From Polycladidibacter stylochi (GTDB taxonomy: Bacteria > Pseudomonadota > Alphaproteobacteria > Rhizobiales > Stappiaceae): 64,000 nt of DNA. Made by a program: the position numbers and the translations under genes. The stretch is taken from NCBI RefSeq assembly GCF_001562055.1, contig NZ_LLWE01000005.1:62001-126000 (forward strand), given 5' to 3'. This document shows, piece by piece, positions 56,901 through 63,673 of this stretch (position 1 is the first letter of the stretch; every line of letters starts with the position of its first letter). The notes under the pieces are model-generated. The model searched no databases and was not told the origin of the DNA. It saw nothing but the letters and a program-made list of their open reading frames with translations.

Positions 56901-57078
56901 AGTAACGGAATACCGCGACCAAAAACCCAAGCCTTTTCACGGAAAAAGCTTGCTTAATGCCACTTAACACGTTTGTGTCCTTGACCTTGTGGCCCACGCA
57001 TGGCACCTGTCGGCTAAGAGTTATTTGAGAGGTGGCAAAGTACGCAACTTGGCTGCCAGTGTATTCAGGAAGCTGCCC

Positions 57079-58062
57079 ATGACACTTGATGCTGTTTCGG
57101 CCAATAACCGCGCCACGACCCCAGCCTATATGGACCCAACTAAGTCGTTTCAAGGCTTATTGCTCACACTGCAACACTTTTGGGCAGACAAGGGCTGTGC
57201 CATTTTGCAGCCCTATGACATGGAAGTGGGTGCCGGTACTTTTCATCCGGCGACAACCTTACGTGCACTTGGTCCGCGCCCATGGAAAGCTGCTTATGTA
57301 CAGTCGTGCCGGCGTCCAACTGATGGGCGCTACGGCGAAAACCCTAACCGCCTTCAACATTATTACCAGTTTCAGGTTATTTTAAAGCCCTCTCCTGAGA
57401 ATCTTCAGGAACTTTACCTTGAAAGCCTGCGGGCCATTGGCATCGACACCGCCTTGCATGATGTGCGGTTTGTTGAAGATGACTGGGAAAGCCCAACCCT
57501 CGGAGCTTGGGGACTTGGCTGGGAATGCTGGTGTGATGGTATGGAAGTCTCACAGTTCACCTATTTCCAGCAGGTTGCCGGTTTTGAGTGTAAACCGGTT
57601 TCCGGCGAGTTGACATATGGCTTGGAACGCTTGGCAATGTATGTGCAAGGCGTTGATAATGTTTACGACTTGAACTTCAATGGGCGTGAGGGTGAAGACA
57701 AAATCACATATGGTGATGTGTTCTTGCAAGCCGAACAGGAGTTCTCGCGTCATAACTTTGAATATGCAGATACAGAAATGCTGTTCCGTCACTTCAAAGA
57801 TCATGAAGACGAGTGTAAGCGTTTGCTGGCTTTTAGCGAGAAAGCTAAGGATGAAGCTGGTGATGGCCTACATAAAGTGGTGCTGCCTGCCTATGATCAA
57901 GTTAACAAGGCTTCGCACGTTTTCAACCTTTTGGATGCACGCGGGGTGATTTCGGTTACCGAGCGGCAAAGCTATATTTTACGCGTGCGCGAATTGGCCA
58001 AAGCTTGCGGTACTGCATTCCTTGAGACCCAATGGGGCGGGAAAGAACCAGTCAGTAAGTAA
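57079..58062 (+). CDS. glyQ: Glycyl-tRNA synthetase alpha subunit
   Basis: A 327-residue class II synthetase subunit carrying the catalytic core; with GlyS it forms the heterotetramer charging tRNA-Gly. [60 protein letters not shown] and [13 protein letters not shown] are diagnostic. AGGA lies 9 bases before ATG 57079; upstream in-frame ATG 56989 would add 30 atypical residues. A terminator and a GH3-family gene separate it from glyS, which is unusual. Confidence 0.96.
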
Positions 58063-58083: not shown

Positions 58084-58118
58084 CAAAGCGCCGGCATATG
58101 CTGGCGCTTTGTTTATTT
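58084..58118 (+). terminator. Terminator after glyQ
   Basis: CAAAGCGCC (58084-58092) pairs with GGCGCTTTG (58103-58111), followed by TTTATTT. glyQ is therefore probably not co-transcribed with glyS. The 250 bases that follow show no gene. Confidence 0.8.
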
Positions 58119-58374
58119 GTCTCTGTTAATAGTTCTAATCGCAAGCTGTATAGTAATTCTATACTCGATTAGGTACTTAATAATGACTAGTTATATTCTT
58201 CCCTTATATTTTATTAGGTCATTAGCACCAGATTCTTTGTTGGCACCAGTATGCTAGTTTGGTCGGAATTGATTTGCCTATAGCTGATTTGTTTTTCTCC
58301 TCGCAGATTAATAGCTATTTCAAAACCTGTAGGCTTTATTTTCGCTGCCATTCGATACTGGAGGTCTTTTAGGT

Positions 58375-60591
58375 ATGGAAAAAGCGCCCCTCAAACAAGA
58401 GGCCGTTTTACCAAGGGTTAATTCACCACACAACGCTAAGATAAGTGATGACGGTCTATCGGAGCTGGCCGTTGAGAAGCTAAGTGACAGCGATAAAGTA
58501 CTTTTAAGGTCTGGCAGCATGCCTTTTTGGCAAGGCATTAAAGAGCTTATGACGAATGGGCATAATCAAAAGCCATGGCCTGCAAGCCTTATTCATAATC
58601 TAGGAATTGAGGGGTTACATTTTTGCGAGGGCAATCGTGGTGTTGTTTTAAAGGGAGCGACAACCTTCCCTGTTGGTATGGCGCGCGGTGCAACATTTGA
58701 TCGGGAATTAGAAAAGCGCATTGGCGAGATCATCGGTTACGAGCTACGCGCAGTGGGTGCGAACGTTTTTGCCGGTGTGTGCGCGAGTATATTGCGCTTT
58801 CCACAATGGGGGCGCGCACAGGAGTGTTATGGGGAAGACCCTTACCATGTGGGAGAGATGGCCGCAGCACTTACAGAAGGCGTGCAGCAATATGCAATCG
58901 CCACAGCAAAAAACTTTGTGGCGTGCGAATTCGAGACGAGCAAGTTCAAGTGCGATATTAGCATCAGTGACAGGGCCTTACATGAAATATACTTACGCCC
59001 CTATAAAAGGGTGATTGAAGCCGGTCTGGGTGCTATTATAACTGGTTACAGCTCGCTCAATGGTGAATGGCTTTGCCAAAATAGCGAGATGATACACGGT
59101 ATCTTGAAAAAGAAACTTCGCTATGAAGGCCTTGTTATCAGCCCCTTTTTGTTTGGCATACGTGACAGCCTAAAAGCCGCCAATGCAGGGCTTGATTTGG
59201 AAATGCCATTTTGCATGCACTACGCCCAAAATTTAGCAACCCACCTTAGGGATGGCAAGCTCGACAAGCGGTTACATGACGACAGTTGCCGGCGCATTGT
59301 ACGCCAACAGTTACGCCTTAAAACAAACGAGCAATTTGACCGACGTAAATTGGCCTGTAAACAACACCGGACTATTGCGTTAGAAGCGGCTGAAAAATCT
59401 ATTGTTTTACTTAAAAATGATCACAACATACTGCCCCTGGAAGGGGTTGAGACACTGGCCGTTATAGGCGAATTTGCAGGAACTCCAAACCTTGGCGATA
59501 ATGGCTCTGCCAAAACACAGCCACGCCATGTTGTAACGCCTCTTGAGGGATTGAAAAATGCATTTCATTTACAAATCGAACTTTGGCAAGATAAAGGGCG
59601 TGATTTACAACGGGCAACACAACTGTCACGTAAAGCAGATGCTGTATTACTGGTAGTTGGTAACGGGGCTGAGGATGAGGGAGAACATATACCTACCGAT
59701 TTGGCCGAGAATTTTTGGCACTTGCTTCCTGAACCACAAAGCCGTGAAGAAAAGTACACAAGGGATGCTTTTCTGCGCACTTTTACCGCAAAAAACAAGG
59801 CTCAGCATGCCTGCGGAGATCGAAGGGATCTCTCGCTAAAACCAAGCGATTTACGATTGATTGACCAGGTTTGTGCCGTGAATGAGCGTGTTATTGTTGC
59901 CATCATGGGGGGCGGCCCCTTTACTATGACAGAGTGGATCCGCAAACCTGCAGCGGTTTTAATACTATGGTATCCTGGTATGGAAGGGGGGACAGCTTTA
60001 GCACGCCTTTTGAAGGGTGCTATCTCGCCAACTGGGAAGCTACCCTTTGCGATTGCGCAGCAACAACAACACTTACCTTGTTTACCCAATAACTTCCGCC
60101 AGTTGAGCTATGATATGTGGCATGGATACCGACGCCTTGATAAAGATGGTAACACTCCACTCTTCCCCTTTGGCTATGGGCTTTCTTACAGCAATTTTCG
60201 TTACAGCAACCTAGAGATATCCTACCCACCAAGCCAACTTGTCTCTGGAGTAGTAGTTTCTTTCAATCTGGAGAATATTGGCAGTTACGATACCGAGGAA
60301 GTTGCTCAGCTGTACACTTCTGCATTAAATTCCAAACTCAGCAGAGCACAACGGGAGCTCAAAGGGTTCAGACGCGTTTTTTTGAAAGCCGGGGAAACAA
60401 AACATATTGAAATGTTACTTTTATACAAAGACTTAGCAATTTACGATAGTCATAGTGATGATATGGTCGTGGAGCGTTTGGTTTATGATATCATCGTTGG
60501 AGGCTCTAGCCGTGATCCTAATGGACTGCGGGCTCAGCTTAATTTAAACGGTAGCAAGCACAAGCAAACGAGTGAAGCCGCACTTACATAG
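58375..60591 (+). CDS. GH3-family protein lacking the catalytic nucleophile
   Basis: A 738-residue, apparently cytosolic protein (no signal peptide) with the three parts of a GH3 beta-glucosidase: TIM-barrel (about 30-300), alpha/beta sandwich (about 345-610) and fibronectin-III-like end (about 650-715). Family anchors remain: GRAQECYGEDPYHVG, DRALHEIYLRPY, AGLDLEMPF, SIVLLKNDHNILPL, GYGLSY, QRELKGFRRV. The active site is altered: the nucleophile motif SDW reads SPF (256-258), the substrate His of KHF is Asn (KNF, 179-181), and DGPRGV reads EGNRGV. The acid/base-like EDEGEH stays, but a ~45-residue insertion separates it from the usual DR element. It is likely inactive or re-purposed. GGAGGT lies 10 bases before the ATG. 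Confidence 0.8.
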   Translation: MEKAPLKQEAVLPRVNSPHNAKISDDGLSELAVEKLSDSDKVLLRSGSMPFWQGIKELMTNGHNQKPWPASLIHNLGIEGLHFCEGNRGVVLKGATTFPVGMARGATFDRELEKRIGEIIGYELRAVGANVFAGVCASILRFPQWGRAQECYGEDPYHVGEMAAALTEGVQQYAIATAKNFVACEFETSKFKCDISISDRALHEIYLRPYKRVIEAGLGAIITGYSSLNGEWLCQNSEMIHGILKKKLRYEGLVISPFLFGIRDSLKAANAGLDLEMPFCMHYAQNLATHLRDGKLDKRLHDDSCRRIVRQQLRLKTNEQFDRRKLACKQHRTIALEAAEKSIVLLKNDHNILPLEGVETLAVIGEFAGTPNLGDNGSAKTQPRHVVTPLEGLKNAFHLQIELWQDKGRDLQRATQLSRKADAVLLVVGNGAEDEGEHIPTDLAENFWHLLPEPQSREEKYTRDAFLRTFTAKNKAQHACGDRRDLSLKPSDLRLIDQVCAVNERVIVAIMGGGPFTMTEWIRKPAAVLILWYPGMEGGTALARLLKGAISPTGKLPFAIAQQQQHLPCLPNNFRQLSYDMWHGYRRLDKDGNTPLFPFGYGLSYSNFRYSNLEISYPPSQLVSGVVVSFNLENIGSYDTEEVAQLYTSALNSKLSRAQRELKGFRRVFLKAGETKHIEMLLLYKDLAIYDSHSDDMVVERLVYDIIVGGSSRDPNGLRAQLNLNGSKHKQTSEAALT

Positions 60592-60815: not shown

Positions 60816-63053
60816 ATGCCTGATCTTCTACTTGAACTGTTTAGTGAAGAAATTCCTGCCCGTATGCAGCGGCGTGCGGCTGACGACCTCAAAAGCCTTG
60901 TCACCAATGCCTTGGTTGAAGCCGGCTTGACCTATGAGGGTGCCAAAGCCTATGCAACGCCACGCCGTCTTGCTCTGCATGTGGCTGGCCTACCTTCGGC
61001 CTCAAAAGCAACTCGCGAAGAACGCAAAGGGCCTCGCGTTGGAGCGCCGGAAAAAGCGCTCGCAGGCTTTTTGCGCGGTACTGGGTTGAGCTGTATTGAT
61101 GAAGCCCAAATCCAAAGCGACCCGAAGAAGGGTGAATTTTATGTTGCGGTCATTGAAAAACCAGGCCGCGATAGTCAAGACATTATTGCCGATATCATGC
61201 CTGGCATTATTCGCAGTTTCCCGTGGCCAAAGTCGCAGCGCTGGGGCACAGGTTCATTGAAATGGGTGCGTCCATTACACTCTATTTTGTGCCGGTTTGG
61301 GCCTGAAACTGAAGAGCCGGAAGTCATTGAATTCGAAGTGGATGGTATTAAATCTGGAGCAACCACCTACGGTCACCGCTTTATGGCGCCGGATCAATTC
61401 GAGGTGCGCCGCCTTGAAGATTATATGGCAAAGCTGGAAGCGCATAAGGTTGTTTTGGATGCAGACCGACGCAAAGATATTATTTTGCATGATGCTAAAA
61501 ATAGTGCCATGGCGCTTGGTCTAGAGCTGGTTGAAGATGAAGGCCTTTTGGAAGAGGTCGCGGGCTTGAACGAGTGGCCGAGTGTGCTTATCGGTTCCTA
61601 TGACGAGGCTTTTTTGCAACTTCCTGATGAGGTTATTAAGCTTACCATCAAGGAAAACCAAAAGAATTTTGTCCTGAAAGACCCGAGCACCGGGCGCTTG
61701 AGTAACAAGTTTGCATTGACCACGAATATTGAAGCCAGTGATGGCGGCTCTGTGATTATTCGTGGTAACGAAAAAGTTGTGGTCGCACGGCTTTCAGATG
61801 CCAAGTTTTTCTGGGAAAGTGATCTTAAAACTCGCCTTGAGGATAGCTTACCAAAACTGGATTCGATTGTGTTCCATGAAAAGCTCGGAACCGTTGGTAT
61901 GCGGGTACACCGGCTGGTAAGTCTTGCAAGTGAAATAGCACCTTTGGTTCAGGCAGATGTAACCAAAACAGCACGCGCTGCAAAACTGGCAAAAGCTGAC
62001 CTCGTGAGCGCTACAGTCTATGAATTTACCGAGTTACAGGGGCTAATTGGCCGGTACTTGGCACAAGAACAAGGCGAAGACAACGATGTAGCGCTTGCTA
62101 TTGAAAATCACTATAAGCCTGCAGGTGCTCACGGTGATATCCCTGCCGCACCTATTTCTATTGCCGTTGCCCTTGCCGACAAGCTGGATGTACTCGCTGG
62201 TTTTTGGGCGATTGACGAAAAGCCTACTGGCTCTAAGGATCCATTTGCGCTACGCCGTGCCGCTCTCGGGGTTATCCGACTGATATTGGAAAACGATTTA
62301 CGTTTACCCCTACGGGATTTGTTGGTGCAGGCACTGCGTCGCAATCTTGCACATATGGCAAGCCACCGCGGTGAAGAGGCTGTTGCCAGCCTACCATTCC
62401 TTGGCAAGGGTGATTTTGCTGGCAATGCTGTGCAAGAGTTTTTCAATTTCGTTCGTAATAGTGCCGATAAAGTTCTTGATTCTGTTGCAGAAAAAGTTGG
62501 CGAGACATCTTTCGAACATGCCGTTATCGATGACCTGATGGCTTTCTTTGCTGAGCGCTTAAAAGTTGTGATGAAAGAAAAAGGCATTCGTCACGATTTG
62601 ATTGATGCCGTTTTTGCTCTTGGAGGCCAAAACGATTTGGCACTGTTGGTCAAACGTGCTGAAGCCCTCGGCGCATTGCTGGAAAACGAAAATGGTATCA
62701 ATCTGCTCGCAGGTTACAAACGTGCTGCGAACATTTTACGCGCTGAAGAAAAGAAGGACGGTGCTGTATTTGACGGTACACCGCTCAAAGAACTATTGAG
62801 CGAGAATGCCGAGGTCGTTCTGTTTGAAGCCATTGAACGGGCAAATGCAGAACTGGCACCTCTTTTAGCACAAGAGGATTATGCCGGTGCAATGAATGCG
62901 CTCTCGGCACTTCGCGGACCTGTTGATCTGTTCTTTGTTGAGATACATGTGAATGCGGAAGATTCGGGGGTACGCGAGAATCGATTGAAACTACTTTCGC
63001 AAATACGCGATGCAGTGCATCAAGTCGCTGATTTCTCCAAGATATCCGGTTAG
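60816..63053 (+). CDS. glyS: Glycyl-tRNA synthetase beta subunit
   Basis: A 745-residue subunit that binds tRNA-Gly. [71 protein letters not shown] and [20 protein letters not shown] are diagnostic; the HD-like and anticodon-binding C-terminal domains are intact. It has its own upstream spacer (60592-60815) rather than joining glyQ, so it needs its own promoter or read-through from the GH3 gene. A strong terminator follows. Confidence 0.96.
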
Positions 63054-63208: not shown

Positions 63209-63673
63209 CTAATAGGCTATATTGGCACGTTTATAAATAAAATGGAGTAACCAGGCAGGACCAATGAGTAAAAATTGAATATCCTTCAAAAACGATGGTT
63301 TTTTCCCTTCGATTTTATGTCCCCAAAACTGCGCTATCCAAGCAATAACAAATAATGATAGTGCAATCTTCCATAGAGAGCCTGGAAAGCTTGCTTCGAT
63401 GATCGCATTTAAGAGAAGGCAGCCTATGGAAAAAACCAGCATCCCGAGTGCCAATTGCCAAGACAAAACTAAGTAGTAAATAGTAACAGGAATAAGCGCC
63501 AGAGTGCACCAATTATTCACAATAGTTTTTTCAATGATTGGAATTGGCAGTGACCATGACAATGCTGTGATACTCCAAAATATTACAGGAACACAAATCC
63601 AATGCACTAGTTTATTGGTCTCATCTTGATGACTCTCTCCGTATTCATCTAGTAAATTTTCTAGTTTTCGCAT
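63209..63673 (-). CDS. Mpo1-like (DUF962) membrane protein
   Basis: A 154-residue protein with about four predicted helices. YGESHQDETNKLVHWICVPV at the start and AWIAQFWGHKIEGKKPSF near the end are the DUF962/Mpo1 signature, with the conserved His that bind iron in yeast Mpo1, a dioxygenase removing one carbon from 2-hydroxy fatty acids. The bacterial role is not established. GGGGGA lies 6 bases before the ATG. Convergent with glyS. Confidence 0.85.
   Translation of the reverse strand: MRKLENLLDEYGESHQDETNKLVHWICVPVIFWSITALSWSLPIPIIEKTIVNNWCTLALIPVTIYYLVLSWQLALGMLVFSIGCLLLNAIIEASFPGSLWKIALSLFVIAWIAQFWGHKIEGKKPSFLKDIQFLLIGPAWLLHFIYKRANIAY

Follow-up and report, generated by a model that had tools for sequence, protein, structure and literature searches.

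A candidate pseudo-glycosidase of family GH3 encoded between glyQ and glyS in Polycladidibacter stylochi

The aspartate nucleophile of family GH3 has been described as strictly conserved (portions of PMC6987092). In the Listeria beta-glucosidase Lin1840, whose subsite -1 comprises Asp91, Arg149, Lys191, His192, Asp270 and Glu473, activity of the nucleophile mutant D270A was undetectable, and a disaccharide was still held in the same place, in subsites -1 and +1 (portions of PMC4757417). Here we describe a GH3-type protein of 738 amino acids in which proline stands in the position of this aspartate. It is encoded in a 64,000-nucleotide stretch of the genome of the marine bacterium Polycladidibacter stylochi (assembly GCF_001562055.1, contig NZ_LLWE01000005.1, positions 62,001 to 126,000), referred to below as the window, and the open reading frames on either side of its gene are presumably glyQ and glyS. 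We consider it, with a probability of roughly 0.55, to be a xylosidase-derived, probably cytoplasmic pseudo-glycosidase that would bind a sugar without cutting it. No natural bacterial GH3 protein lacking the nucleophile was found at the level of titles and abstracts in the literature searched, whose coverage leaves out most subscription journals. The available portions of the literature on pseudo-glycosidases, on Pseudovibrio glycoside hydrolases (including the carbohydrate-active enzyme section of PMC5959193) and under the species names contained no report of the present protein.

The GH3 gene and its active site

The protein belongs to family GH3 by sequence and by predicted fold. A first-pass annotation, made from the sequence alone, had described a GH3 sequence well kept over three domains in an intact frame with a GGAGGT ribosome-binding site, and both descriptions hold (Table 1): the Pfam domains GH3 N (residues 86-310), GH3 C (343-605) and Fn3-like (642-712) all exceed their cut-offs, and the AlphaFold model is a complete three-domain GH3 structure (predicted local distance difference test 92, predicted template modelling score 0.93). 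No signal-peptide-like stretch is visible by eye at the N-terminus, and the protein is therefore probably cytoplasmic. Against the curated NCBIfam xylosidase models it stays under the cut-off (246.8 bits vs 1250, 270.8 vs 1050 and 235.5 vs 1350), as do six tested relatives that keep the aspartate. Comparisons with family models and homologues yielded no characterised member of the subfamily; the enzymes of PMC8954004 (available in part), considered as characterised relatives, belong to GH120 instead.

The structural comparison with solved GH3 enzymes was drawn from a VIA-align table, and the Lin1840 residues listed above were matched by motif to positions 85, 147, 179, 180, 257 and 435 of the window protein. 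In three alignments with solved GH3 homologues, Pro257 falls on the strand g aspartate of the nucleophile motif and Asn180 on the histidine of the Lys-His pair, so that the replacements of SDW by SPF and of KHF by KNF noted at first pass do lie at catalytic columns. Arg147, Lys179 and, on the loop of domain 2, the acid/base Glu435 are retained, together with Tyr225, which we take to be a pocket residue; the Lys-His pair is thus half kept. The first-pass reading of EGNRGV in place of DGPRGV was correct as to Glu85. Its interpretation as damage was not, because glutamate in place of aspartate on strand c marks the GH3 beta-xylosidases (portions of PMC6987092). To call the active site destroyed was therefore an overstatement, although the nucleophile is indeed gone; the true breaks in the window protein are Asn180 and Pro257. 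With D257P and H180N the protein is an enzyme homologue without conserved catalytic motifs, which is how a pseudoenzyme is defined in portions of PMC10211241. The insertion of about 45 residues, listed with these changes at first pass, is present (about 44 residues from Glu437 to GDR, and 43-54 across 14 genus rows) and is typical of the subfamily, since aspartate-keeping relatives carry it too: three Anaerolineae rows have 45 residues here, and those acidimicrobial rows that were read in frame have 44-62.

The extent of these changes was assessed in 14 rows from the genus and 74 subfamily rows from several phyla outside it. A single-protein search of genome contigs gave no relatives; an alignment-based search, made as a pattern scan, gave 257, the best 80 of which supplied 71 of the outside rows, and three came from another search. 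The outside rows include near-duplicates and are not independent, and one scan pattern spanned residue 147, permitting R, K or M there. L087 (wrong frame), the distant L177, L178-L180 and eight loci repeating genus genomes were dropped; L062 and L112 are partial. Outside the genus, the six columns read D, R, K, H, D and E in 74 of 74 rows. A more distant sample of 398 genomes of the phylum gave 45 further matches, and in all 29 that were read columns 147, 179, 180 and 257 were again R, K, H and D; glutamate occupied column 85 in 11 of them, and column 435, poorly aligned in these rows, was left out.

Within the genus, no row keeps all six pocket residues, the sole change in G002 being D85E. 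Column 85 reads Glu in 12 rows, Asp in one and Ala in one; column 147 Arg in 12, Lys in one and Met in one; column 179 Lys in 12 and Arg in two; column 180, altered in 12 of 14, Asn in 11, His in two and Tyr in one. The nucleophile column has Asp in 11 rows and Pro in three, so that its replacement is always proline, and Glu435 is found in all 14. Of the 91 columns that are conserved outside the genus, those that vary within it include five of the six in the pocket, as against 27 of the other 85 (one-sided Fisher p 0.019, uncorrected). Two orthologues deserve mention. In the protein of P. flavus (G012, loci L014 and L043), subsite -1 is altered at five positions (A85, M147, R179, Y180, P257), with Glu435 alone of the six residues remaining, and the aspartate-keeping G010 orthologue (L012) has Lys for Arg at 88 and 147 and retains His180, a route of pocket change unlike that of the other genus members.

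Genomic setting and arrival of the gene

An orthologue with 41-49% identity is present in 13 of the 15 other genus genomes, and in all 13 the order, placed by tblastn, is glyQ-GH3-glyS. The glyQ-glyS gap holding the gene generally measures 2.6-2.8 kb, reaching 4.0 kb in G005 and 4.4 kb in G012, both of which have extra frames there. In G007 and G011 no GH3 match was found at E 0.001, and other genes fill gaps of 7.5 and 6.6 kb. This gene set (L157:4554-11437 and L158:5586-11876) is partly common to both genomes, and its frames resemble, by eye, an arsenate-reductase-type small phosphatase, a major facilitator superfamily transporter and a permease. Among 21 genomes of the same family outside the genus, 19 had no GH3 match and two had weak ones (E 2e-32 and 3e-4, vs 2e-177 or lower in the genus).

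The first-pass annotation had seen in this position the splitting of a normally adjacent gene pair and hence a later arrival, and neither claim is supported by comparison. Fourteen stretches beyond the genus, 11 from its own family and three from its order, were inspected with glyS placed by tblastn, since long antisense frames mask it on the gene maps of GC-rich genomes. It was reached in nine, where it lies 1.95-5.3 kb from glyQ in every case, and was beyond the stretch in the other five. A recent insertion between glyQ and glyS was thus rejected, since all 13 of the 13 carriers have the gene in this place and the gap is wide in nine of nine measurable outside stretches. From the same synteny and spacing it follows that the gap accepts genes and that the GH3 gene most likely entered it on the genus stem. 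The claim that terminators bound the gene is half supported: a terminator-like hairpin does follow glyQ (12 pairs and a T-rich tail), and the scan found no plus-strand site between the GH3 stop and glyS; its total of 5 sites against a chance mean of 4.1 is near chance level.

Sugar genes accompany some outside members of the subfamily. At 72 outside loci (E 1e-15), xylose isomerase relatives were found in 4, xylulokinase relatives in 5, those of a sugar ATP-binding cassette (ABC) ATPase in 17 and those of a glycoside-pentoside-hexuronide (GPH) symporter in 9; some of these loci are short, the home loci of four query proteins are counted among them, and the ABC ATPase query matches ABC ATPases generally. 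Neighbours of L098 and L068 exceed the NCBIfam cut-off for xylulokinase, as does another neighbour of L098 for xylose isomerase. In the acidimicrobial loci L068, L105 and L109, relatives of xylose isomerase, GH3 and xylulokinase adjoin, likely as a xyloside-use cluster for this GH3 subfamily. No sugar-gene neighbours were found with five queries in the 13 genus loci of 18 kb (E 1e-5). Xylose isomerase occurs in two of the 16 genus genomes and was not found in that of the window. The ancestral enzyme would have freed xylose or a similar sugar from imported glycosides.

Two further features of the neighbourhood may be mentioned. The glyS gene of G005 (L034:4379-6611) is split over two frames (residues 1-44 and 44-745), perhaps by a sequencing slip in a draft genome. 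Downstream of glyS in the window, at 63209-63673 on the minus strand, lies a gene for a small protein of 154 amino acids, presumably of DUF962/Mpo1 type by its appearance; its relatives in the genus (56-60% identity) likewise lie near glyS.

Table 1. Features of the GH3 locus in the window
Feature	Position	Strand	Remarks
GH3-type protein, 738 amino acids	58375..60591	+	intact 738-codon frame, ATG at 58375, Pro257 in place of nucleophile Asp
GGAGGT ribosome-binding site	58360..58365	+	9 bases upstream of ATG
Codon 85, Glu (motif EGNRG)	58627..58629	+	Asp in 74/74 subfamily rows outside genus; Glu in GH3 xylosidases
Codon 180, Asn replacing His of Lys-His pair	58912..58914	+	alignment
Codon 257, CCC, Pro replacing nucleophile Asp	59143..59145	+	alignment and codon reading
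Codon 435, Glu, acid/base position	59677..59679	+	kept in 14/14 genus rows and 74/74 outside rows
Insertion between acid/base loop and GDR, codons 438-480	59686..59814	+	subfamily-typical
Upstream neighbour, presumably glyQ (alpha chain of glycyl-tRNA synthetase)	56989..58062	+	mechanical open reading frame; true start probably internal
Terminator-like hairpin 3' of glyQ, 12 pairs and T-rich tail	58084..58111	+	scan
Downstream neighbour, presumably glyS (beta chain of glycyl-tRNA synthetase)	60816..63053	+	

Loss of the nucleophile and selection on the gene

Codon 257 is GAC or GAT in the 11 aspartate rows, CCC in the window and CCG in G013 and G012, and a change from Asp to Pro requires at least two base changes. 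The GH3 tree was built with 11 active-site columns removed and 12 of the 74 outside rows included; for alignments and trees the G012 protein was trimmed to its first ATG (667 amino acids), the GTG-started frame of 732 amino acids being used for the ratios of nonsynonymous to synonymous substitution rates (dN/dS). In this tree the window protein groups with G013 (support 94/95) and G012 with G010 (99/99); the two pairs fall apart, and G010 keeps the aspartate. The P. flavus protein, whose nucleophile motif reads TPF, thus sides with an aspartate-keeping species. A single clade of the three proline rows, a possibility raised at first pass, is rejected on the GH3 tree (approximately unbiased test, p-AU 0.00142). 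Seven flanking genes again join G010 and G012 (94/99), yet do not reject such a clade (p 0.139). Read by eye, the tree needs two changes at position 257: either the aspartate was lost twice, or it was lost once and regained once. Two separate losses are the simpler and likely reading of these sequences, supported by one of the two clade tests.

Pairwise dN/dS was estimated by the Nei-Gojobori method for 14 GH3 pairs, and dS was computable in eight, all aspartate-keeping and all within a clade of ten species with large genomes. In these pairs dN/dS was 0.037-0.079 (dS below 0.8 in five, 1.6-2.8 in three), next to 0.025-0.063 for glyS in seven of them; in the other six, including all three with the window, GH3 dS was saturated. 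The GH3 gene is under strong purifying selection in the aspartate-keeping close pairs, and the remodelled protein is thus selected for in aspartate-keeping species. The three proline rows have intact frames, and the window protein and G013 have common pocket letters, differing at 87, 182 and 184. Branch lengths for GH3 and for glyQ plus glyS were 0.69 and 0.168 for the window, 0.74 and 0.18 for G010, 1.84 and 0.139 for G013, and 1.12 and 0.099 for G012. The window branch is thus not faster than that of the aspartate-keeping G010, and those of G013 and G012 are.

Interpretation and comparison with known systems

With the nucleophile gone, the frame kept, the predicted fold intact and no substitute acid standing out, the best reading of the window protein is one proposed at first pass, a pseudo-glycosidase whose role lies in binding or sensing. 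A three-domain, probably cytoplasmic GH3 enzyme from a subfamily that is widespread and xylosidase-like would have entered on the genus stem, settled between glyQ and glyS and lost its sugar-catabolic surroundings at this locus. Remodelling of subsite -1 would have followed in the ancestor of the genus or shortly afterwards. Proline would then have replaced the nucleophile in the P. stylochi / P. hongkongensis-like lineage and again, most likely as a separate event, in P. flavus, a change that should abolish retaining hydrolysis. With its pocket remodelled and proline in place of the residue that does the cutting, the protein probably persists because it binds a sugar and not because it cuts one. 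The fold, Arg147, Lys179, Tyr225, Glu435 and the xylosidase-type Glu85 remain; since these pocket residues are kept and Lin1840 D270A holds its disaccharide without activity, a sugar or small glycoside is likely still held, uncut. The protein may then act through binding, whether by sensing or carrying the sugar or by regulating a partner. It is unlikely to inhibit, or serve as a decoy for, an active GH3 paralogue of three-domain type in the same cell, the only other GH3 N-domain match in the window genome lying in a frame of 355 amino acids that is NagZ-like by length. The broader proposal, that the genus turned a GH3 xylosidase into a cytoplasmic receptor or regulator by retuning the pocket before two or more parallel losses of hydrolysis through the same Asp-to-Pro change, with the gene fixed between glyQ and glyS, is put forward tentatively.

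Several observations weigh against a binding protein kept by selection. Selection was measurable in aspartate-keeping pairs only, three of the eight with dS above 1.5, and the proline rows are saturated. The pocket enrichment is modest in the window protein (3 of 6 pocket columns vs 11 of the 85 others; uncorrected p 0.045 in a one-sided Fisher test), and p falls below 0.05 in only three of 14 genus rows, which are not independent (window 0.045, G008 0.029, G012 0.0005). Warnings of long branches (G013, G012) and odd composition (G013) in the GH3 tree weaken the clade test, and the loss of five of six pocket residues in G012 means that binding may not extend to all proline rows. All compared strains, including the P. 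stylochi type strain, hydrolyse esculin, a beta-glucoside (portions of PMC12080928). Finally, the long GH3 branches of G013 and G012 and the absence of the gene from G007 and G011 fit relaxed selection in some lineages. According to this somewhat doubtful alternative, the enzyme became dispensable in small-genome, host-associated lineages, where the active site decays first and gene loss is to come; the other genes in the glyQ-glyS gap of G007 and G011 and the window genome size of 3.68 Mb, vs 4.7-6.5 Mb in the ten-species clade, would agree with it. However, all three proline frames are intact despite only 41-42% identity of G013 and G012 to the window protein, the window branch is no faster than that of G010 relative to glyQ plus glyS, and lineages in which dN/dS is near 0.05 have pocket changes already.

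Other explanations would leave the protein a catalyst, or the proline an artefact. It is improbable that Glu435 and the remodelled pocket support a reaction without the aspartate nucleophile, or one with a nucleophile borne by the substrate or supplied externally. The conservation of Glu435 throughout the genus, an invariant Glu437 in a 56-row alignment, the retention of Tyr225, Arg147 and Lys179 in the window protein and the recurrence of identical letters at 85 and 180 would suit such a chemistry, but no new catalytic candidate common to the proline rows stood out, G012 lacks Arg147 and Lys179, and the Asp-to-Ala change in Lin1840 kills that relative (portions of PMC4757417). Very improbable, in spite of the kept acid/base and predicted fold, is a still working glycosidase whose nucleophile comes from another residue or from a shifted loop: residue 257 lies on the nucleophile aspartate in the alignments with solved homologues, and the column comparison brought out no substitute acidic residue common to the three proline rows. 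Column 356 alone is acidic in all three and in none of the 11 aspartate-keeping genus rows; it was rejected as an alternative nucleophile, being acidic in 43% of outside rows and distant in sequence from the active site. That codon 257 was wrongly sequenced or assembled is hardly credible even with a single genome of the species compared, given the two base changes needed and the proline at the same codon in two other genomes.

If the reading as a pseudo-glycosidase is right, one genus offers, at one locus, aspartate-keeping and aspartate-lacking orthologues as a natural series for the change from glycosidase to binding protein, and a test of whether an identical replacement arises repeatedly. 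Should the aspartate-keeping members still hydrolyse, active, intermediate and inactive stages would stand side by side. Glycoside hydrolases of other families have been kept after loss of catalytic residues: Klotho is a pseudo-glycosidase, and beetle pectinase pseudoenzymes are reportedly a further case.

Within GH3, the window protein resembles the three-domain beta-glucosidases of Kluyveromyces marxianus (3abz/3ac0), Listeria (Lin1840, 4zo6) and Clostridium thermocellum (7ms2) in its predicted fold, its acid/base glutamate and its subsite -1 arginine and lysine, and differs from them in the replacement of the nucleophile by proline and of the histidine of the Lys-His pair by asparagine. With the beta-xylosidases RmXyl3A/B (portions of PMC6987092) it has in common the Glu85 state, and some subfamily relatives adjoin relatives of xylose isomerase and xylulokinase; unlike that group, the genus copies have no adjoining xylose genes and the window nucleophile is lost, and the outside aspartate-keeping relatives carry Asp85 in 74 of 74 rows. 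A close parallel for a GH3 protein without its nucleophile is Lin1840 D270A (portions of PMC4757417), a laboratory alanine mutant with an intact histidine, whereas the window protein carries a natural proline together with asparagine.
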